From an uncultured Planctomycetaceae bacterium (lineage in GTDB: Bacteria > Planctomycetota > Planctomycetia > Pirellulales > UBA1268), in NCBI GenBank assembly GCA_903919035.1, contig CAIXGY010000221.1:1-40550 (forward strand): 40,550 bases of DNA. The letters are read 5' to 3'. Shown here piece by piece: positions 18,272 to 39,506 of this stretch (the first letter of the stretch is position 1; each line of letters begins with the position of its first letter). The position numbers and the translations under genes were made by a program. The notes beneath the pieces are model-generated. The model did no database searches. It was not told the DNA's origin and was given only the letters and a program-made list of their open reading frames with translations.

Positions 18272-18690
18272 GTCGGCCGCGTTGCTGATGGCGTGGTGAG
18301 CCGCAGGCCGCCCCATGCCAGCGCCATCCAACCGGCGATCAGCAACACGCCACCGATGGGCACGACGGCGCCGAGCACGCGCATGCCGGTGAGTGCCAAC
18401 ACCCACAGGCAGCCGCTGAACACGAGCGTGCCGAGCGTGAAACACCATGCCGCGGTCGCGAGGCTGCGCACGGCGCGGCCCGCAGTCGGCAGTGCGGCAG
18501 TCAGGCCGCAGGCCACGAGGGCCAGGGCGTGGGCGAGCGCGTATCGGGAGGCGGTCTCCCAGTTGGCCGCCTGCCCGCTCGCCTCCAGGAGCGGCTTGAG
18601 CCCGTGGGCCCCGAAGGCGCCCGCGGCCACCGCGCCGGCGCCGAGCAGGCTGCCGAGGGCGATGCAGGTGCCGGCCAGCCTCCCGCTCAC
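18265..18690 (-). CDS. DUF423 family small membrane protein
   Basis: A 141-residue protein with four hydrophobic helices (about 8-28, 46-66, 76-98, 105-127). The family signature AGAFGAHGLKP is at 22-32, and the second helix starts NWETASRYALAHALAL. The family includes E. coli YgdD and eukaryotic TMEM256; its function is unknown. The GTG start (18688-18690) overlaps the TGA of the upstream secretin gene (GTGA), so translation of the two is probably coupled even though their roles are not obviously linked. Confidence 0.9.
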   Translation of the reverse strand: MSGRLAGTCIALGSLLGAGAVAAGAFGAHGLKPLLEASGQAANWETASRYALAHALALVACGLTAALPTAGRAVRSLATAAWCFTLGTLVFSGCLWVLALTGMRVLGAVVPIGGVLLIAGWMALAWGGLRLTTPSATRPTH

Positions 18691-21485
18691 GGCCGTGAGG
18701 TTCCCATGAGCTTCTCCTCTTCCTCCTCCTGGATGATGATCCGCGGCGTGACCATCAGCATGAGGCTGTCCGTCGTCCGGCCGAGGCCGACGTTCTTGAA
18801 CAGGCGGTTGATGTAGGGAATCTTCGACAGGATCGGCACGCCGTATTCGTTCCGACCCTCGCGGAGCCGCTTGATGCCGCCGAGCAGCACGGTGCCGCCG
18901 TCGGGCACGCTCACGGTGGTGGTCACGGTGGTGAACAGGAACTCCGGCAGCTGGATCGTGGTGCCGTTCGACTGCACCTCCAGTTCATCGCTCGACTCGT
19001 CTCCGGTGGCCAGGTCGACGAGTCCGTTCGTGCCCGTGCCGGCGAGCTGGCCGAGCACGCCCGACCGACCGCTGACGCCCGACTTCGAGTCGCTGCTCTT
19101 CGCCTTCGTCGACCGCTGGCCCTCGAACTGGAACGATTCCACGCGGCCGATCTGCGAGAAGAACGGCACCAGCGTGAGCCGCACGAACCGGCGATCGTTC
19201 GACACCACGGCCTGCACGTTCACGGCGGTGCCCTCGTTGAGCACCGTGATCACCGGCTGCTGCGCCGCGGCGAAATCACCGACCACCGGGATCACGGCCG
19301 TCACGAAGGGCCGCTGGCGGGTGTCGGACACGAAGGCGTTCTGCCCGTTGAAGAGCGTCACCTTCGGCGACTGCATGACGTTCGACCGCGTGTTGCCCTG
19401 GGCGGCCTGGATGAGGAAGTAGGCCTCGATGTCGGAGAGGATCGCGAAGCCGAAGTTCGCGGCCGAGGTGGCCGGATCGGGAAGGCCCGGCAGCTGGGGC
19501 ACCGTCGCCGCGCCGAAGCTGTTTTGCCGGAAGGGGATCGAGAAGAAGTTTTGCGCGGCGGGGCCCAGCGTCTGCTGCCCCTGACCGACCAACGGGTTGG
19601 CGAACGGGCTGACCGCGACGCCCGGATTCCCCGTGCTGTCGAGGCCGATCGTCTGCGTCGGGCCGCCCGGTGCGGCGGTGATGCCCTGCTGGAACGGGTT
19701 GGTCGAGCTGTTCCCCTGCGTGGGAATGGCCGTCATGTTGAGCGGTTGGTTCACGCCCGATTGGATGTTGAAGTCGAAGTCGACGCCGATCCGTTCGAAG
19801 AAGGTGTCGTTGAGGCTGATGAACCGCACCTCGATCGTGACCTGGAGATCCTGGAGGCGGCGGAGTTGTTCCAGGAGGTCGGCGATCTCCTCATGCACCT
19901 CCTGCGTCTGGCTGACGACGAGACTGAGGTTCGTGGCGAAGGGCTGGATCGCGCCCGGACCGCCCACGGTGTCCCAGGTGTCGGCGGCCACCGTGCTCTG
20001 GATGAGGCCGATGAGCGACTGGAAGTCGGCCTGCGCGCCCCCCGCGGATGGTGGTCCGAAGGGAATCGACGGCGTGGAGCCCGTTCCCGGCGGTCCGGAC
20101 CTGCCCCCGGGGATCTGGGCCAACGCGCTGGTCGCGAGGTCTCCCGCGGCGGCCCGTCCGCCGCCGATCCCGGCCGGCGGCGGCCCCACCTCGACCGCCA
20201 GGGCGTTGCGGAGCGACGCCTGCGAGTAGCCGTCGCGGAGCGCGCCGGTGATGCCCAGGCCGTCGGACGAGAAGTTCGGCACGGGGAGGACGAGGTCGGC
20301 GACCGGGTAGGTGACCGCGTAGACGTCGCCGCGGACGAGCCGGGGGCTCGTCACCTTGAGCACCTCGTCGCGAATCGCGTAGCCGAGGTGCAACGGTTCC
20401 AGGATCAGCTTCAAGGCGCTCTTGAGCGAGATCGGCTGATCGAGGGCCAGCGTCACGCTCGTGTCGCTGCGGACCGCCTCTTCGTCGAGGCCCGCGAGGT
20501 CGAGATGCACCGCCACGTCGGCCTGGGCGCCGAGATCCTCGAGCACCTTTGCGAGCGGCGCGTCGTGATAGGCGGGTTTCACCTTCGTGTTGAGCCGCCG
20601 CTGGATCTCTCGCTCGACCGGAGAGGCTTGGGCCCGGGCGGCGGCCTGCAACTCGCCGCGGCTCTTGGTGAGGTCGCGCCAGTCCTTCGTGTCGGGGAAC
20701 TCGATCGGTCCCGCGAACGGCGCCGACGATCGCTCCACGTCCTCGACCACGTCCATGAAGCCAGCCTGCTTGTCGGTGGCGATCGACTGCTGGGCGTCGA
20801 GTCGCCGGATCACCCGGCTCTGGGCGAGGAGTTGGCGGACCACCGGATTGTCCGGGGCCAGTTCGCCGGCCTTCTTGGCGATCGCCTCGGCCTCGGGAAA
20901 CCGCTGCTGGTCGATGAGCGTGTTGTATTCCTCGACGAGCATGGCGATCCGCTGATCCACCTCGACCCGCCGGGAGCGATCACGGTCGATCTCGGCCTCG
21001 ATGCGGCTGTTCTGGGCCTCGAGGGCCAGTTCCGCCCGCCGCTTGCCGGTCATCTCCTCGATCTCGCGGCGGGTCCGCTCGATCCGCCGCAGAAACTGAT
21101 CCCGCGCGGCCTGCGGAAGCCCGCGGCCGTCGAGACCCTGCGCGGCGGCGTCGAGCAGCGCGAGCGCCTCAGCCGGCGACCGCTGCGCGAGCCGTTTGGC
21201 CTCGAGTTGCTTGGCCGCCAACTCGGCCGAGGTGCGGGCGAGCGTCAGCGGATCCGCTTCGGCGTTGGCCGTCGCACCGCCCTGCTCCGTGGACGTCGTC
21301 GGGGCGGTGGCGGAGGGCTCTGGCGCGGCCGCGGCGTCGATGGCCTGCCGGATGATCCGCCGCGCCGTCTCGGCATCGCCGGCCGCGGCGGGCGCGGGAA
21401 GGTCCTCGCCGCGGCTGGTGCCGGTCAGGGCGAGGCCGGGCAGCAACAGTCCGCACGCCGCGACGAGACGAAGGGTGGATGTCAT
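18687..21485 (-). CDS. Secretin (GspD/PilQ superfamily), orphan, planctomycete type
   Basis: Outer-membrane pore protein of 932 residues. A signal peptide (about 1-26) is followed by an Ala-rich segment and a long charged helical region (about 85-230). An N0/STN-like domain is at about 300-385 (YHDAPLAKVLEDLGAQADV ... LLEPLHLGYAIRDEVLKVT in pieces), then VTYPVADLVLPVPN. The secretin region covers about 500-932: QDLQVTIEVRFISLND, SPKVTLFNGQNAFVSDT, DRRFVRLTLVPFFSQIG and, from 859, VPDGGTVLLGGIKR and GVPILSKIPYINRLFKN. No other type II secretion or type IV pilus gene is nearby, so its partners must be encoded elsewhere. It shares much sequence with the giant VWA protein at 33515-38167. A leader of about 200 bases separates it from the upstream receiver gene. 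Confidence 0.93.
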   Translation of the reverse strand: MTSTLRLVAACGLLLPGLALTGTSRGEDLPAPAAAGDAETARRIIRQAIDAAAAPEPSATAPTTSTEQGGATANAEADPLTLARTSAELAAKQLEAKRLAQRSPAEALALLDAAAQGLDGRGLPQAARDQFLRRIERTRREIEEMTGKRRAELALEAQNSRIEAEIDRDRSRRVEVDQRIAMLVEEYNTLIDQQRFPEAEAIAKKAGELAPDNPVVRQLLAQSRVIRRLDAQQSIATDKQAGFMDVVEDVERSSAPFAGPIEFPDTKDWRDLTKSRGELQAAARAQASPVEREIQRRLNTKVKPAYHDAPLAKVLEDLGAQADVAVHLDLAGLDEEAVRSDTSVTLALDQPISLKSALKLILEPLHLGYAIRDEVLKVTSPRLVRGDVYAVTYPVADLVLPVPNFSSDGLGITGALRDGYSQASLRNALAVEVGPPPAGIGGGRAAAGDLATSALAQIPGGRSGPPGTGSTPSIPFGPPSAGGAQADFQSLIGLIQSTVAADTWDTVGGPGAIQPFATNLSLVVSQTQEVHEEIADLLEQLRRLQDLQVTIEVRFISLNDTFFERIGVDFDFNIQSGVNQPLNMTAIPTQGNSSTNPFQQGITAAPGGPTQTIGLDSTGNPGVAVSPFANPLVGQGQQTLGPAAQNFFSIPFRQNSFGAATVPQLPGLPDPATSAANFGFAILSDIEAYFLIQAAQGNTRSNVMQSPKVTLFNGQNAFVSDTRQRPFVTAVIPVVGDFAAAQQPVITVLNEGTAVNVQAVVSNDRRFVRLTLVPFFSQIGRVESFQFEGQRSTKAKSSDSKSGVSGRSGVLGQLAGTGTNGLVDLATGDESSDELEVQSNGTTIQLPEFLFTTVTTTVSVPDGGTVLLGGIKRLREGRNEYGVPILSKIPYINRLFKNVGLGRTTDSLMLMVTPRIIIQEEEEEKLMGTSRP

Positions 21486-32769: not shown

Positions 32770-33510
32770 TCACCGCCAGACGTCGTCGCCTGCGAAGGGG
32801 TGCGCGGGGCCGCCGAGCCGCGGTGTCGGCAGGGCCTTGAGGGCCTGTTCCGCGAGTTTCAGATCCTCCCGGCTGGTGATCTTCATGTTGATCGGCGAGC
32901 CGGGCACGACGGCCACGGCATGGCCGAGCGCCTCGACCGCCTGGGCCTCGTCGGTGGGCCGGTCGGCTGGGGCGGCGGCGAAGGCCCGCATCAACAGGTC
33001 CCGGGAAAAGACCTGCGGTGTCTGGGCCTCCCAGAGACCGGTGCGATCGACCGTCTCCGTGATGACGTTGCCGGGGCCGACCCGCTTGAGCGTTCCGGCC
33101 ACGGGGATCGCGAGGATGGCCGCGCCCGTCCGGCCGCCGACCTCGAAGACCCGGTCGATCCAGGCCTGCGCGATGCAGGGTCGGGCGGCGTCGTGGATGG
33201 CCACCGTGTCGATGGCCGGGTCGAGTTTCTCGAGGCCGCGGCGCACCGACTCGGCCCGGTGGGCGCCGCCTTCGGCAAGGGTGATGCCCATGAAGGCCAG
33301 GTTGGCACCGAACTTTTCGACGAAGGCCGCGCGGTCCTCCGGCGCAACGACCACCACGACCTGCTTCACGTCGGGGCGATCGATGAACTTTTCGGCCGAG
33401 TGGATCCAGACCGGCCGGCCGGCCAGCGGCGCGAACGGTTTCTTGTAATTCGCGTCGTTGAAGCGGCTGCTCTGGCCCGCGGCCGCGAGGATCACGCCAA
33501 AGGTCGGCAT
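32770..33510 (-). CDS. ispD: 2-C-methyl-D-erythritol 4-phosphate cytidylyltransferase
   Basis: Third step of the non-mevalonate (MEP) isoprenoid pathway: couples CTP to methylerythritol 4-phosphate. The 246-residue protein has the nucleotide-binding loop VILAAAGQSSRF (Ser where Gly is common), the lysine KKPFAPLAGRPVW, HDAARPC, PVAGTLKRV, EAQTPQVF and TDEAQAVE. A C-terminal tail of about 20 residues (GGPAHPFAGDDVWR) goes beyond the usual end. ATG 33510 is 4 bases after the stop of the giant protein gene, and its end overlaps or touches tyrS, indicating co-transcription. Confidence 0.92.
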   Translation of the reverse strand: MPTFGVILAAAGQSSRFNDANYKKPFAPLAGRPVWIHSAEKFIDRPDVKQVVVVVAPEDRAAFVEKFGANLAFMGITLAEGGAHRAESVRRGLEKLDPAIDTVAIHDAARPCIAQAWIDRVFEVGGRTGAAILAIPVAGTLKRVGPGNVITETVDRTGLWEAQTPQVFSRDLLMRAFAAAPADRPTDEAQAVEALGHAVAVVPGSPINMKITSREDLKLAEQALKALPTPRLGGPAHPFAGDDVWR

Positions 33511-33514
33511 GGCG

Positions 33515-36500
33515 TCAGAGCCCGAAGGAGGGCAGCGGCCGGCCCGTGACGACACGATCCATCAGCAATTTCACCAGGGCTTTGGCGACGGGCTTGTCGC
33601 GCAGCCACCCGGCAAACGTCTCGCCGTGGGTGACATAGGCGTCGCGGAGCGGGGTCGGCGCGTCGGTCAGCAGCCAGTCGCGGAACACGAGCCACCGCGG
33701 GTCATCGCTGCCGTAGACCTCGCGGGCCACCCAGCAAAAACCCTGACCGCCCATGCCACCCATGCCGCCCATGCCGCCGCCCATTCCGCCCATACCGCCA
33801 CCCATGCCACCCATGCCACCGCCCATGCCACCGCCCATGCCACCGCCCATGCCACCCATGCCGCCGCCCATGCCACCCATGCCGCCGCCACCGATGCCGC
33901 CGCCGGTGTCCCCAGACACGTAATTGAACGTCGTCACGTTCCCGACACCCGAGAACAGGGGCGTGGCCGTAATCCGGACATACCGGCGATCTGCCGACAC
34001 GACCGCCCGGGCGAACATGTTGATGCCCTCGGGAAGGGTCGTGATCACGGGCTGGTAGCCGACCGCTCCGCCCCGGAAGAATGGCAAGCCCGACGCCGGC
34101 GCAGCCGCGCCGCCCTGCCGGCTCGCAGCCAGGGCCGCCGTCGCCTGCGGATCGCTGAGCGACGAGAGTTGCTGGGCGAGCGCCGTTTGGCCGACATGGT
34201 GCTGCACGGCGACGTCCTGAGCGACCTGGGCGTCGAGCAGCGGCTCACGGCGTCGACCCGAGCCCAGATTGACCACGATCAGCGACTCGTCGCCCTCGAT
34301 GCGAATCTGTTTGGTCTGCCGCTCTTCCTGATCCGTCCCGCGACGGATCACGGTCTCGGCCGTGATCGTGTCGGCCTCGACCTTGCCGCAGACGCGACGA
34401 ACCAACGCCCGGTAGGTTCCCGGAAAGGCCTCGACCACGACATACCGCTCGCGGTGCACGCCTCCCGCATCCACCCCACGATTCGGATCGGAGATCAACG
34501 CTCCGCCGGCCATCGATCGGGCGGCGACGGGAGAGCAGACGCTGCCAGACGGTTCCTCCACGAGCAGGTCGATGTCGGCGTCGCCGCTCCAACTGATCTC
34601 GAGAACCAGGTCCCTCACCATGGCGGCCGCGACGTCGGCCTGGAAGGCCGCGGCCTCTTCGGCCTTGCCGGCCTTCGCGAGGGCGTCGATCGTGGCCTTC
34701 GACAGCCGGGTCGCCCTGGTGACGACCACCTGCTGGGCTGCCGGCCACTCGTGGGCCAGCACGCCGGCGCATGCCCAGCGCAGGGCAGCCGTGTCGCCGG
34801 ATCGCTCGGCGAGGGTCATGGCCAACGCGTAGGCTTCGCGATTGGCCGAATCGATCCGCGTCACGCGGCGGCACATCCGCAGGGCCTGCCTGTCGGACCC
34901 GAACCGCGCCAGGTAGTTGGCGAGTTGCAGCAACTCCGCCGGACTGGATGCGAAATCGGCACTCGACAGGAGTGCTCGCTCCACCTCACCGCGCGGCCGG
35001 CCGGCGGCCTCGAGGGCCAGCGCGAGCGACTCATACATCCACGGCTCCGCGCGGCCGCATGCGATCGCCGCCGAGATGAGTTCCGCGGCTCTGTCGAAAT
35101 CGCCCGCCGCCCCGAGGTCTCGGGCCGACGCCCGCACCTGGGCGAGTCGATCGGCTGTTTCACGACTCATCGTTTCATCGGACGCACTGCCGGAGGATGC
35201 CTGGTTGCCGGCAAGGTATTCGGTGACCGCCGCACGAAGGTCGTTCGCCTCGACGACGTGCGCCGGCAGCCCGTCACCACCTTCTCCGGCGGTGGGGGCG
35301 GGGGCATCGTCGTCGCCATCCGCCTCGGCGCTGCGGGCCAGCCGCGCCTTCGCGTCGGTGATCTGGAAGTGACCGCCCGTGCCGTTGAGGCCGGCCAGCC
35401 GAGGCTGAACGACGGCATCCATCAGGCATCGCAGGCCCGACTTGGCGACCGGGCGATCGTGCAGCCACTCGGCCGCGGACGGTCCCACGGCGACGTAGGC
35501 CGCACGCAACCACGCCGGTGCCTCGGCGGTCATCCAGCCGCGAAACACGAGCCAGCGCGGGTCGTGGGCGCCATACACCTCGCGGGCGACCCAGCAGAAC
35601 ATGCCGCCACCGCCACCCATGCCGCCGCCCATGCCGCCCATGCCACCACCCATGCCACCACCCATCCCACCCATGCCGCTGTTGATGCTGCCCGCCCCGC
35701 CCATGCCGCCGCCCATCTGGAATGGATTGACGCCGGAACTCGGGTTCACGGGCAGCACGAGGTCGGCGACCGGATAGACCTTCACGACGAGGTTTTCTTG
35801 AGCCTTCTCCTTCGTGGTGACGAGCAGCACCTCGTCCTTGATGAGATAGGTGAGGCCGGGTTCGCGCAGCAGCAGCCGGAGCGCCGACCGCAGCGAGACG
35901 CCCTGAAGTTTCTGGGTGACCGTGGTGGCGTCGAGGTCGATGCCGGCGTCGGTGAGCGCCTGCATGTCCGGAACGATGGGAATATTGAACTCGTCCTGCA
36001 GTTGGCTGATCACGGCCCGCAGCGGAGTCTCCTGGAAGTCGAAGGTGCGGGTCACCTCCCGCTCCAGCGAGTCGTAGATCCGCTTCTCGTTGGCCGTCGG
36101 ATTGGCGAGATCGACCGACTTGTATTTCTCGCGGAGCCGACTGATCTCCCGCCAGCGCTGGGCCGTCGGATAGATGATCGGCGGCTCGTCGGGGAATGGA
36201 ATCGCGGCCACGTCCACGAGGTGGAGCGTGTCCATGAAGCCCCGTTCCTGATCCCGCTTCGTGCGGACGTTTTCCGCGTCGTAATCCCGGATCCGGGCCT
36301 CGACGAACGCCTTCCGGGCCATCGCGCGGGCGGTGATCGGCACCGGATGATTGGCAAACAGCTCGGGCGCCTCCTCCATGAGTTGCTCGCCGGGGAGGCG
36401 CTCGGCTTCGGTGAAGACGGTCGTGGGCGCGTCGGTGCGCTCGATCCGGTCGGCGAACTGTCCGGTGTTGTCGCCGAGCACGGCGGGGTAGCGTTCGGCG

Positions 36501-38167
36501 CGGTCGTAGCCGATCCGGATGCCCTCCTCGACGAGCGCGTTGTAGCGCTCGGCGAGCTGCTTGATGCGATCCTCCCGGCGGCGGAGCTCGTCGTTCAGCC
36601 GCATCCGCTCGCGGCCGATCGCGGCGCGGCGCTCGGCCGCGAGGTCGCGATCGACCTTCTCCCGGGAGCGCACGATCGACTCGCGAATCCGCATCTCCAA
36701 CTGCCGCAGGAGTCGCTGCTTGTCGGCCGCGTCGAGATCGTCGGACTTGGAGACGAGCATCTGCGCCTCCTTGAGCAGGTCACGGGATCGGTCCGGATCG
36801 GTGGTGAGCAGGTCGCGGGCCTCACGGATCCGCACGGCCGTCTCGCGTTCGAGCTGTTGCCCGCGGACCCTCCGCATGGACTGGAGTTCCGCGAGTTCGC
36901 CGGAGTCGATGGCCGGCTCGACCCGGGGAAGCGCCTCGGCCGCTGGCTCGCCGGCGGCAGCGTCGGCCTTGCGGTGCAGCGACACCTCGCGGATCACGGC
37001 CGCTTCCGGGTTGTCCGGATCGCGGCGGAGGGAAGCCTCCGCGAGACGGCGGGCCGACTCGGACGCCCCCGCCGCTTCCGCCTGGCGGGACATCGCCGCG
37101 AGGGCGGCGGCTTCTCCACGAATGACGTCCCGGGCCAGCAGCAGCCCCTCCCGGCCGAGCAGCGGCAGAAAGATGCCGTCGGTGTCACGGGCGTTGCGTG
37201 CGAGTTCGGCGACGAAGGCGTTGTCGTCGCGGGGCTCGGCGACCGGCACATCGACGGCCGACGTCCGCGGATGACCCGCCGAGTCGTGCAGCGTGCACGA
37301 GAGGCGGAGGCCGTCTCGATTGCCCTCCACGAGGACGACCGAGTCGCGATCGGCCCGCAGGGGCGGAAGCCGGGCCGGCAGCATGCGGAGCGGTGCGTCG
37401 CCGGCGGCCGTGAGTGCGACGTCCTCCGGCCACAGCACGGCCTGCACGGCCTGCGCACCGAGGGTGCCGCCCGTCATCTTCGCACCGTCGTCCTCGCCGG
37501 GCACGGCGAGCATGCCGCCGCTGGCGCTGGCAAGGGCCGCCAGGCACGGCCAATTCACCTGCGGGCCCACGCCACAGCTGGATACGGCCACCCGCCTGGC
37601 ACGCACGAGATCGATCAGGCTCGCGAATTCCTCGCGATCGACGCCCCCGAGGGCCGGACCGTCACCGATGTAGATGATGGCTTTCGGGCCGGCACGGTCG
37701 CCGAACAATGCGGCGCCCGACTCGATCGCCTCCGACAGCTCGGTCGACCCGAGTGGCGTCTTCGCGTCGAGTGCCCGGCCGGCGGCTTGGATCGCGGGCG
37801 ATGCCGCCGCATGAAACCCGTCGACGACCGGCGTGCAGGCCACGTCCACGGTGGCGATCGCGAACCGGTCCTCGGGCCGGGCCGACTCGATGATGCCGGC
37901 CACCGCATCGAGGGCGCGTTGCCGAAACGCGCCCGTCTGGCTGGCCGACGTGTCCACGAGAATGACGACGTGCGCGGGGGGCGCCGGCTCCTGGCCGACC
38001 ATCGTGAGACCGATGGCCGCCACGGGCACGTCGCCCGGAGCCTGGCCGGCTGGGCAGGCATCGACGAACGTCACCTCAGGGGCCGCGTCGGCGGCAGCGC
38101 CGACACCGGCTGGAAGCATGAAGGACACGGCGGCTGCGGCGAGCAACAGCGGACGGAGAAACGACAT
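33515..38167 (-). CDS. Giant exported mosaic protein: VWA, secretin-derived parts, TPR, YfaP-like domain, duplicated C-terminal module
   Basis: A 1550-residue protein. Signal peptide at 1-24 (FLRPLLLAAAAVSFML), then a VWA domain with metal-site motif DTSAS at 72-76 (to about 250). A charged coiled-coil region (about 430-600) leads to an N0/STN-like domain at about 708-795 and KVYPVADLVLPVN; these parts resemble the secretin at 18687-21485. A Gly/Met-rich run (about 816-855) and a 70-residue module starting CWVAREVYG follow. Next are TPR-like helices (about 980-1180), a beta domain from about 1186 (ISWSGDADIDLLVEEPSG) like DUF2135/YfaP, a secretin-like fragment at about 1371-1420 (QPVITTLPEGINMF, ADRRYVRITATPLFSGVG), a second Gly/Met run and a second CWVAREVYG module to the end. 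The secretin pore-forming C-terminus is absent. ATG 38167 has GGAG 10 bases upstream and opens a signal peptide; the frame continues to 38365. Function unknown. Confidence 0.85.
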   Translation of the reverse strand: MSFLRPLLLAAAAVSFMLPAGVGAAADAAPEVTFVDACPAGQAPGDVPVAAIGLTMVGQEPAPPAHVVILVDTSASQTGAFRQRALDAVAGIIESARPEDRFAIATVDVACTPVVDGFHAAASPAIQAAGRALDAKTPLGSTELSEAIESGAALFGDRAGPKAIIYIGDGPALGGVDREEFASLIDLVRARRVAVSSCGVGPQVNWPCLAALASASGGMLAVPGEDDGAKMTGGTLGAQAVQAVLWPEDVALTAAGDAPLRMLPARLPPLRADRDSVVLVEGNRDGLRLSCTLHDSAGHPRTSAVDVPVAEPRDDNAFVAELARNARDTDGIFLPLLGREGLLLARDVIRGEAAALAAMSRQAEAAGASESARRLAEASLRRDPDNPEAAVIREVSLHRKADAAAGEPAAEALPRVEPAIDSGELAELQSMRRVRGQQLERETAVRIREARDLLTTDPDRSRDLLKEAQMLVSKSDDLDAADKQRLLRQLEMRIRESIVRSREKVDRDLAAERRAAIGRERMRLNDELRRREDRIKQLAERYNALVEEGIRIGYDRAERYPAVLGDNTGQFADRIERTDAPTTVFTEAERLPGEQLMEEAPELFANHPVPITARAMARKAFVEARIRDYDAENVRTKRDQERGFMDTLHLVDVAAIPFPDEPPIIYPTAQRWREISRLREKYKSVDLANPTANEKRIYDSLEREVTRTFDFQETPLRAVISQLQDEFNIPIVPDMQALTDAGIDLDATTVTQKLQGVSLRSALRLLLREPGLTYLIKDEVLLVTTKEKAQENLVVKVYPVADLVLPVNPSSGVNPFQMGGGMGGAGSINSGMGGMGGGMGGGMGGMGGGMGGGGGMFCWVAREVYGAHDPRWLVFRGWMTAEAPAWLRAAYVAVGPSAAEWLHDRPVAKSGLRCLMDAVVQPRLAGLNGTGGHFQITDAKARLARSAEADGDDDAPAPTAGEGGDGLPAHVVEANDLRAAVTEYLAGNQASSGSASDETMSRETADRLAQVRASARDLGAAGDFDRAAELISAAIACGRAEPWMYESLALALEAAGRPRGEVERALLSSADFASSPAELLQLANYLARFGSDRQALRMCRRVTRIDSANREAYALAMTLAERSGDTAALRWACAGVLAHEWPAAQQVVVTRATRLSKATIDALAKAGKAEEAAAFQADVAAAMVRDLVLEISWSGDADIDLLVEEPSGSVCSPVAARSMAGGALISDPNRGVDAGGVHRERYVVVEAFPGTYRALVRRVCGKVEADTITAETVIRRGTDQEERQTKQIRIEGDESLIVVNLGSGRRREPLLDAQVAQDVAVQHHVGQTALAQQLSSLSDPQATAALAASRQGGAAAPASGLPFFRGGAVGYQPVITTLPEGINMFARAVVSADRRYVRITATPLFSGVGNVTTFNYVSGDTGGGIGGGGMGGMGGGMGGMGGGMGGGMGGGMGGMGGGMGGMGGGMGGMGGMGGQGFCWVAREVYGSDDPRWLVFRDWLLTDAPTPLRDAYVTHGETFAGWLRDKPVAKALVKLLMDRVVTGRPLPSFGL
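33743..33897 (-). repeat. Gly/Met-rich coding repeat, second run
   Basis: About 50 codons of GGM and GGMG units inside the giant protein gene; the DNA is a run of near-identical 9- to 12-base units (CCGCCCATGCCACC variants on the plus strand). It ends directly at the last CWVAREVYG module. Prone to slippage and to assembly error, so its exact length is uncertain. Confidence 0.9.
35602..35712 (-). repeat. Gly/Met-rich coding repeat, first run
   Basis: About 35 codons of GGM/GGMG units, similar to the run at 33743-33897 and, like it, directly followed by a CWVAREVYG module. The pair marks an internal duplication in the giant protein. Confidence 0.9.
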
Positions 38168-38429
38168 CGGGGGGACACTCCGGGTGCGCGGTTCAGGAGC
38201 GGGCGGCAGCCTCTTCTGCAGAGCATATTTCGGCGGGTGCTGAGCCGCCAACGTCGGATTCTGCGGAATTTCGGGCGTTTTCGGGGTCTGGGGAGGCATC
38301 GGCGTGCGCGAGACCGCGTCGGGAACCCGTCTTGGATGACTCCATCTCGGGCGCGGATACTCCACGGTCGACCGTCGGGCAACGGGCCCGCGAGTTCTTC
38401 CGAACCGTCACCGTCATCGACCGCACGCC
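38168..38429. other. Divergent intergenic region, giant protein/htrA
   Basis: The 262 bases between the two divergent starts should hold both promoters, but I see no convincing -10/-35 pair. The part 38200-38365 is also an open extension of the giant protein frame (Pro/Gln-rich, no signal peptide), which I regard as untranslated. Confidence 0.4.
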
Positions 38430-39506
38430 ATGCAGCGACTCGTCTTCGTTCTCGGGAGCCTTCTTGCACTGCTGCCGGTGCCGGCCTCGGCCCGGGAGGG
38501 CACGGCCGCGCTGCGTGACTTCACCCCCGAGGAGCGGACCAACATCGCGGTCTACGAGGCCGTCAATCGGAGCGTGGTGAACATCAACACGAAGGCCACG
38601 GTGACCACCGGGCTGTTCCTGCTGGAAGTTCCGTCCGAGGGGGCCGGTTCGGGCATCGTGCTCGACACGCAGGGCCACGTGCTCACGAATTTCCACGTGG
38701 TCGAGGGGGCGCAGAAGATCCAGGTGCTGCTCTACGACGGTTCCGCCCACGAGGCGACGGTCGTGGGCTCGGATCCTGCGACCGACGTGGCCGTGCTCCG
38801 CGTGGAGGCACCCCGTGACCTGCTGCAGCCGGTGGAATTCGGTTCGTCGAACGACCTGCGGGTGGGCCAGCGAGTGTTCGCGATCGGCAACCCGTTCGGC
38901 CTCGAGCGAACCTTGACGACGGGGATCATCTCCAGCCTCAATCGTTCGCTGCCCACGCGGACGGGTCGGACGATCAAGTCGATCATCCAGACCGACGCGG
39001 CCATCAATCCAGGCAATTCCGGCGGGCCGCTCGTCGACAGCGGTAGCCGCCTGATCGGCATGACCACGGCGATCGCCAGCCGCACCGGGCAGAGCGCGGG
39101 CGTCGGGTTCGCCATCCCGGTGGGCACGCTGGCGCGCATCGTGCCGCAACTCATCCAGCGCGGGCGGGTGATTCGCCCGGACGCGGGCATCGTGCGGGTC
39201 TACCAGACGGACGCGGGGCTCGTGGTGGCCCAACTCGCCCCCGGCGGGGCGGCCGAGCAGGCCGGGATTCGCGGGTTCAAGGAGGTGCGGGAGCGTCGGC
39301 GGCAGGGGCCTTTCACCGTGGAAACCGTGCGGGTGGACCGGTCCGGGGCGGACCTCGTCGTTGCCGTGGCTGGCCAGTCCGTCAAGACGGCCGACGACTT
39401 TCTCTCGGCCGTGGAGTCGAAAAATCCAGGTGATCGCGTGCTCATCACGGTCCAGCGGGAGGGGCACCAGCTCGACATCCCGGTTGTTTTGGCCGCCGAA
39501 AACTAG
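38430..39506 (+). CDS. HtrA/DegP-type periplasmic serine protease
   Basis: A 358-residue S1C protease with one PDZ domain, likely in envelope protein quality control. A signal peptide covers about 1-21 (cleavage at ASAREG). The protease domain (about 40-235) shows the triad: His in TNFHVVEG, Asp in ATDVAVLRV and Ser in NPGNSGGPLVD. The PDZ domain is at about 250-355 (VAQLAPGGAAEQAGIRG, AGQSVKTADDF). The linker between beta strands, GTLARIVPQLIQRGRV, is typical of the DegS/HtrA group. A single PDZ is closest to DegS/HhoB forms; without a membrane helix it should be soluble. No Shine-Dalgarno is visible before ATG 38430. A hairpin follows 6 bases after the stop. Confidence 0.93.
   Translation: MQRLVFVLGSLLALLPVPASAREGTAALRDFTPEERTNIAVYEAVNRSVVNINTKATVTTGLFLLEVPSEGAGSGIVLDTQGHVLTNFHVVEGAQKIQVLLYDGSAHEATVVGSDPATDVAVLRVEAPRDLLQPVEFGSSNDLRVGQRVFAIGNPFGLERTLTTGIISSLNRSLPTRTGRTIKSIIQTDAAINPGNSGGPLVDSGSRLIGMTTAIASRTGQSAGVGFAIPVGTLARIVPQLIQRGRVIRPDAGIVRVYQTDAGLVVAQLAPGGAAEQAGIRGFKEVRERRRQGPFTVETVRVDRSGADLVVAVAGQSVKTADDFLSAVESKNPGDRVLITVQREGHQLDIPVVLAAEN

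Follow-up and report, generated by a model that had tools for sequence, protein, structure and literature searches.

The window analyzed in this study, a 40,550-nucleotide stretch of planctomycete DNA, encodes a 1550-aa exported protein (referred to below as the VWA protein), which carries a VWA head and shares two blocks, in conserved order, with the secretin encoded in the same window. The VWA protein is a class-wide planctomycete envelope protein. In two sister families (f21 and f22) its gene is divided between two overlapping frames at a run of exactly nine adenines (A9), which points to programmed slippage yielding a short and a long form of the product. The proposed slippage concerns the relatives: the gene of the window is unsplit and its lineage encodes the long form only. 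The data as a whole are best explained by a secretin-associated subunit combined with transcriptional slippage at A9 in the sister families, a composite reading to which we give roughly an even chance of being correct. The A9-split relatives are the new element of this analysis, and could not have been recognized from the window alone.

Organization of the VWA gene and its product

The VWA gene runs on the minus strand from an ATG at 38167 to a stop codon at 33515. From the N to the C terminus, its product comprises a signal peptide, the VWA domain, helices, an STN domain, a Gly/Met linker and the first CFI-box-like module, followed by TPR helices, a beta domain, a secretin hairpin, the second Gly/Met linker and the second CFI-box-like module. 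The coordinates of these parts, together with those of the neighboring and related loci, are presented in Table 1. Where residues are numbered in the P0002 series, counting starts at a GTG at 38365, i.e. 66 residues before the ATG.

Table 1. Features of the VWA gene, of other genes of the window and of the split loci
Feature	Position	Strand	Evidence or remarks
Whole VWA gene	33515..38167	-	One open frame, 1550 aa; in-frame orthologues throughout the order
VWA domain, DTSAS and GDG metal-site motifs intact	37508..37972	-	Pfam VWA_3, E 6e-13; motif retained in orthologues
Block homologous to the secretin (coiled coil, GFMD segment, STN/N0 and YPVADLVLPV)	35666..36907	-	E 1e-63 over 352 columns against the secretin family (hhalign)
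STN/N0 domain	35792..36052	-	AlphaFold2 pLDDT about 87-92; Pfam STN in 6/25 orthologues
YPVADLVLPV, common to the secretin	35747..35776	-	Sequence; several positions invariant in the family
Gly/Met linker 1, ancestral	35600..35716	-	Found without the module in order-level orthologues
CFI-box-like module, internal copy, genus-specific insertion	35399..35599	-	Weak NCBIfam NF041770 match
TPR helices	34619..35263	-	Pfam TPR_14 in 13/25 orthologues; AlphaFold2 mostly pLDDT 85-95 in the conserved part
Beta domain (YfaP-like by eye)	34250..34618	-	AlphaFold2 mostly pLDDT 80-95; no Pfam match
Secretin hairpin, AVGYQPVITTLPEG...ADRRYVRI...PLFSGVG	33914..34066	-	Aligned by hhalign to residues 739-789 of the secretin (E 2e-20, 49% identity)
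Gly/Met linker 2	33740..33910	-	Sequence
CFI-box-like module, C-terminal copy, family-specific	33539..33739	-	Presence/absence among orthologues
Divergent HtrA-like serine protease gene, conserved neighbor	38430..39506	+	HtrA-like by its sequence
True secretin of the window, homologue used for comparison	18687..21485	-	Pfam Secretin, E 8e-22
A9 split loci	L118-L125, L130-L132, L135, L138-L157, L188-L206		A10 locus: L134

The first-pass annotation of this DNA had described an exported frame of this length with a VWA domain and TPR-like helices, and all three were confirmed, the frame being placed on the minus strand. The VWA fold retains the DxSxS, T and D metal-site residues. An STN-like fold had been proposed at residues 708-795; the AlphaFold2 model has, at residues 775-858 of the P0002 series, the element order strand-helix-strand-helix-strand-helix-strand-strand, and structure prediction thereby upheld the proposal. 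The beta domain, which had been called YfaP-like, was modeled confidently as a beta domain, but its relationship to YfaP was not recovered, as neither the protein nor its 25 orthologues matched Pfam YfaP/DUF2135. Good confidence was also obtained for the helical CFI-box-like module, as for the STN domain and the TPRs, and the pLDDT fell below 50 in the 51-residue secretin hairpin and in Gly/Met linker 2. A Foldseek search with this model returned nothing below E 0.001, the best matches (every one with E > 0.001) being TPR proteins. A search of PDB sequences with the profile of the VWA-protein family yielded low-complexity, coiled-coil and TPR matches only.

Both joints of the protein carry Gly/Met repeats, and the frame might on this account be regarded as an artefactual join of two genes in the assembly. 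This explanation was rejected as having a negligible probability: the same domain order recurs in many independent assemblies, single-contig genomes included.

The genome containing the window comprises 3.46 Mb in 338 contigs. Of 21 loci, 14 carry the HtrA-like protease gene (neighbor cluster 2) beside the VWA gene, and the arrangement is shared by several families of the order. On the downstream side lies a gene named from its sequence as an IspD-like cytidylyltransferase, with a start near position 33510. The VWA and secretin genes are separated by 12 kb and do not share an operon. An open frame of 1686 aa lies antisense to the whole VWA gene (positions 33458-38518, plus strand) and is probably an artefact of the high GC content.

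Relationship to the secretin

The relationship between the two proteins was analyzed by comparing a profile of 25 orthologues of the VWA protein with one of 17 orthologues of the secretin. The main match extends from the coiled coil, through the STN domain, to just beyond the YPVADLVLPV strand. In segment-wise hhalign comparisons the STN block by itself matched the secretin with an E value of 2e-39, and the control segments (TPR, beta and CFI) gave no match to it. The claim that the VWA protein shares pieces with the secretin in the same order was borne out by these comparisons, as was the reported absence of the pore-forming C terminus: the VWA protein has the STN/N0-type N-terminal domain of secretins, does not match Pfam Secretin (PF00263), and lacks the VPDGGTVLLGG-type C-terminal strands, a single hairpin being the only matching part of the C-terminal secretin domain. 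The phrase "built from pieces of a secretin" therefore holds for the sharing as such, i.e. two ordered blocks without the C-terminal signature, whichever the direction of exchange.

The AlphaFold2 model of the window's secretin was poor, with an unreliable pore domain. The lack of folding of the hairpin in the monomer model of the VWA protein may fit the need for a partner; a shallow alignment would account for it equally well. From the shared blocks, we consider it possible, at a little under even probability, that the VWA protein is a secretin-associated periplasmic subunit.

Distribution in the class

When 198 sampled genomes of the class were searched with a profile of the TPR-beta-hairpin region, matches were obtained in 197 of them. 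Seven of these matches were weak (E > 1e-20) and may correspond to the hairpin of the secretin alone; orthologues of the VWA protein are thus present in about 190 of the 198 genomes, including single-contig ones. The secretin profile matched 196 of the 198, and the co-occurrence of the two proteins in the class is near-universal. The domain order, for which a survey had been suggested, is the same in these roughly 190 genomes. All 40 of the nearest relatives match the VWA protein. The order-level orthologues measure 1199-1415 aa, and several of them come from long contigs or single-contig assemblies. Their core is that of the window's protein, running from the helices and the STN domain through a Gly-rich linker to the TPRs, beta domain and hairpin, and the VWA domain is present in nearly all of them. 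In the phylum sample outside the class the whole protein was not found; only partial matches were obtained, in most cases confined to the hairpin or to the beta segment.

Among the papers available for searching, none dealt with Planctomycetes, secretin and VWA together, and the main text of one on the essential genes of Planctopirus is silent on VWA, secretin and frameshift alike.

The CFI-box-like module

The two CWVAREVYG modules, noted earlier as a duplicated C-terminal element, are indeed present in two copies that share 63% identity. They do not belong to the core of the protein: none of the order-level orthologues examined carries the module, its C-terminal copy is found in the window's family (f1), and the second, internal copy is confined to the window's genus, where it is placed within a Gly/Met linker that is free of the module in relatives. 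The CWVAREVYG module is, by this sequence comparison, a late addition outside the core architecture.

The start of the module is similar to the Cys-aromatic-Val-Ala...Tyr-Gly start that we take to be typical of the CFI-box-CTERM family. The profile of this family (NF041770) gave weak, full-length matches for 9 of 10 modules (best E 0.0026). Assignment to the family by score was rejected (13.9 bits for member 1, against a curated cut-off of 40) and we refer to the module only as CFI-box-like. No mention of the "CFI-box" was found in the papers available for searching.

Similar modules were observed in other contexts. In the window's genome, a Wza-like polysaccharide export protein (L082 = G000:C60; also L083) ends in a CWVAREVYG module, and a 409-aa exported protein (L081 = G000:C332) contains one within a Gly-rich linker, directly preceding an FQV motif, as in the VWA gene of the window. 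A fragment of an STN protein (L042:1-1577) ends with a Gly/Met linker, the module and a short tail, and the gene that follows it encodes a relative of the 409-aa protein lacking the module. The module looks like a movable cassette.

Split orthologues and the A9 run

In family f22 the orthologue is encoded by two overlapping frames: ORF1, comprising the VWA domain, helices, STN domain and Gly linker, and ORF2, comprising the TPR, beta and hairpin regions. In family f21, ORF1 lacks the VWA domain and no hairpin was matched in ORF2. The split in both families falls directly downstream of Gly/Met linker 1. All 51 overlaps (31 in f22 and 20 in f21) contain exactly nine A's a few bases ahead of the stop codon of ORF1, which is located 3-30 nt downstream of the run. 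The shift needed to enter ORF2 is -1 at 49 of these loci and +1 at the other two, both of which come from draft genomes and may reflect sequence errors. In one f22 genome the run is ten A's long (A10) and the frame is fused; if reduced to A9, this gene would have a stop six codons past the start of the run, as in its relatives. Apart from this case, the longest A run in the fused genes examined is 7; in the gene of the window, a single frame, it is 4.

The 60 bases flanking the run have a median pairwise identity of only 0.28 between species, which shows that the A run alone is conserved. Runs of at least nine A's other than those at the split sites occur five times in 1.44 Mb, with both strands counted. 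Whole genomes contain 5 to 10 exact A9 runs in three cases, and 54 and 87 in two (G092, G104, G116, G134 and G148); these other runs may mark further slippage genes. Two hallmarks of programmed transcriptional slippage genes are found in f21 and f22: (i) the frames change over at a conserved A/T homopolymer no shorter than 8-9 nt and (ii) ORF2 is without an independent start and fused homologues exist. No description of this frameshift was found in the papers available for searching.

The overlap of the frames and the internal ATGs of some ORF2s would also suit two ordinary genes, with ORF2 translated either by coupling or from a start of its own. This is very improbable, since an ATG is present near the ORF1 stop at only one of the 51 loci and any start codon within 30 nt of it at five, no ATG at all occurs between A9 and the conserved core in 30 of them, no signal peptide was seen at the ORF2 ends inspected, and fused orthologues exist in other families. 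We consider it equally improbable that A9 is a phase-variation tract, turning the long form on and off at the DNA level. Such variation is frequent in surface-type proteins and the A10 genome with its fused frame would suit it, but a contingency tract should vary in length, whereas A9 is uniform, being found in 51 of 52 species.

A less remote alternative, although still an unlikely one, is that A9 acts through -1 ribosomal frameshifting (A_AAA_AAN) rather than slippage of RNA polymerase; short and long forms would be produced either way. The predominance of -1 loci agrees with it, as do the presence of the slippery heptamer in every phase of A9 and the mildly stable folding downstream of the run (mean z -1.0). 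On the other hand, exactly nine A's are retained where seven would suffice, the two +1 loci weigh against simple -1 shifting, which gives no +1, and an SD-like stimulator is present at two of the 51 loci and absent from 49. A transcriptional mechanism is favored by the exact length of the run, by the loci that need +1 and by the scarcity of SD-like stimulators, and the proposed slippage in f21 and f22 is probably of this kind.

Proposed function

The architecture of the protein, in which an exported VWA head precedes the helical and STN/N0 part that makes up the N-terminal half of the local secretin, and a flexible Gly/Met linker leads on to a TPR-beta platform with the hairpin, suggests a periplasmic or outer-membrane accessory subunit, which would either bind the secretin or form an N0-type ring of its own. 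In such a subunit, (i) the STN block could provide the ring interface, (ii) the hairpin could dock onto strands of the secretin and (iii) the VWA head could bind a ligand or fiber. In the sister families, RNA polymerase would slip on A9, adding an A, and a short form that stops beyond the Gly/Met linker would be made in a set ratio to the long form with its TPR-beta-hairpin part, as described for TssM and DnaX.

That the VWA protein works with the secretin is suggested more weakly than the slippage. The placement of the two genes in the window, 12 kb from each other and outside a common operon, counts against it. The idea of contact with the secretin does not apply to all members, because f21 lacks the VWA domain and its hairpin is unmatched. 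Alternatively, the protein may serve in surface adhesion, in sorting or as a scaffold, roles proposed in the first-pass annotation, and may have kept secretin modules for reuse while losing contact with the secretin itself. The intact motifs of the VWA head are compatible with this role, and CFI-box-like modules also form the C terminus of other exported proteins; against it, most of the family lacks these modules, both secretin blocks have been retained in order, and a secretin co-occurs almost everywhere. We rate this alternative as tentative, slightly below association with the secretin.

Outer-membrane complexes known as crateriform structures are described as unique to Planctomycetes in a paper that does not name their proteins (PMC5394234). 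A near-universal protein that shares blocks with the secretin and apparently exists in two lengths in two families is a candidate component of crateriform-type complexes, a link put forward here only as a hypothesis. In its fullest form, which we regard as rather unlikely, the A9 locus of the two families would set the ratio of the short and long forms of a secretin-derived subunit, the task of which would be to build or gate an outer-membrane complex specific to planctomycetes, such as the crateriform structures. The site is absent from the window's lineage, where the adjacent linker would have taken up the mobile CFI-box-like module.

Comparison with known systems

The succession of N-terminal helices, STN/N0 domain and YPVADLV strand, followed by one hairpin from the secretin domain, is common to the VWA protein and to secretins of the PilQ/GspD type (PF00263). 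The VWA protein differs from them in that TPRs and a beta domain replace the N1-N3-type repeats as well as the greater part of the secretin domain, in lacking the conserved C-terminal strands, and in its added VWA head. The CFI-box-like module resembles CFI-box-CTERM (NF041770) in its length of about 65 residues, its all-helical model and its usual C-terminal position, the difference being that the module of the window's genus is also located internally, within Gly/Met linkers.

The closest parallel to the split loci in an envelope system is the tssM gene of Citrobacter rodentium, in which transcriptional frameshifting occurs at A11 and both forms, as well as their ratio, are required (PMC4256274). 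In tssM1, as in the planctomycete genes, a poly-A run directly precedes a stop codon and slippage restores a longer protein of an envelope secretion system. That case involves a run of eleven A's in one T6SS gene and has also been shown in one Yersinia cluster (PMC4256274), whereas the planctomycete site consists of exactly nine A's, recurs across 51 species from two families, and is absent from the window's own gene. The length of the run is matched by dnaX of Thermus thermophilus, where transcriptional slippage takes place at nine A's; a reporter cassette containing nine A's gave a measured frameshifting of about 40% (PMC3711429). Two products in a set ratio are made from nine A's in dnaX, as would be the case in f21 and f22, but the dnaX product is a DNA polymerase subunit, while that of the planctomycetes is an exported envelope protein.
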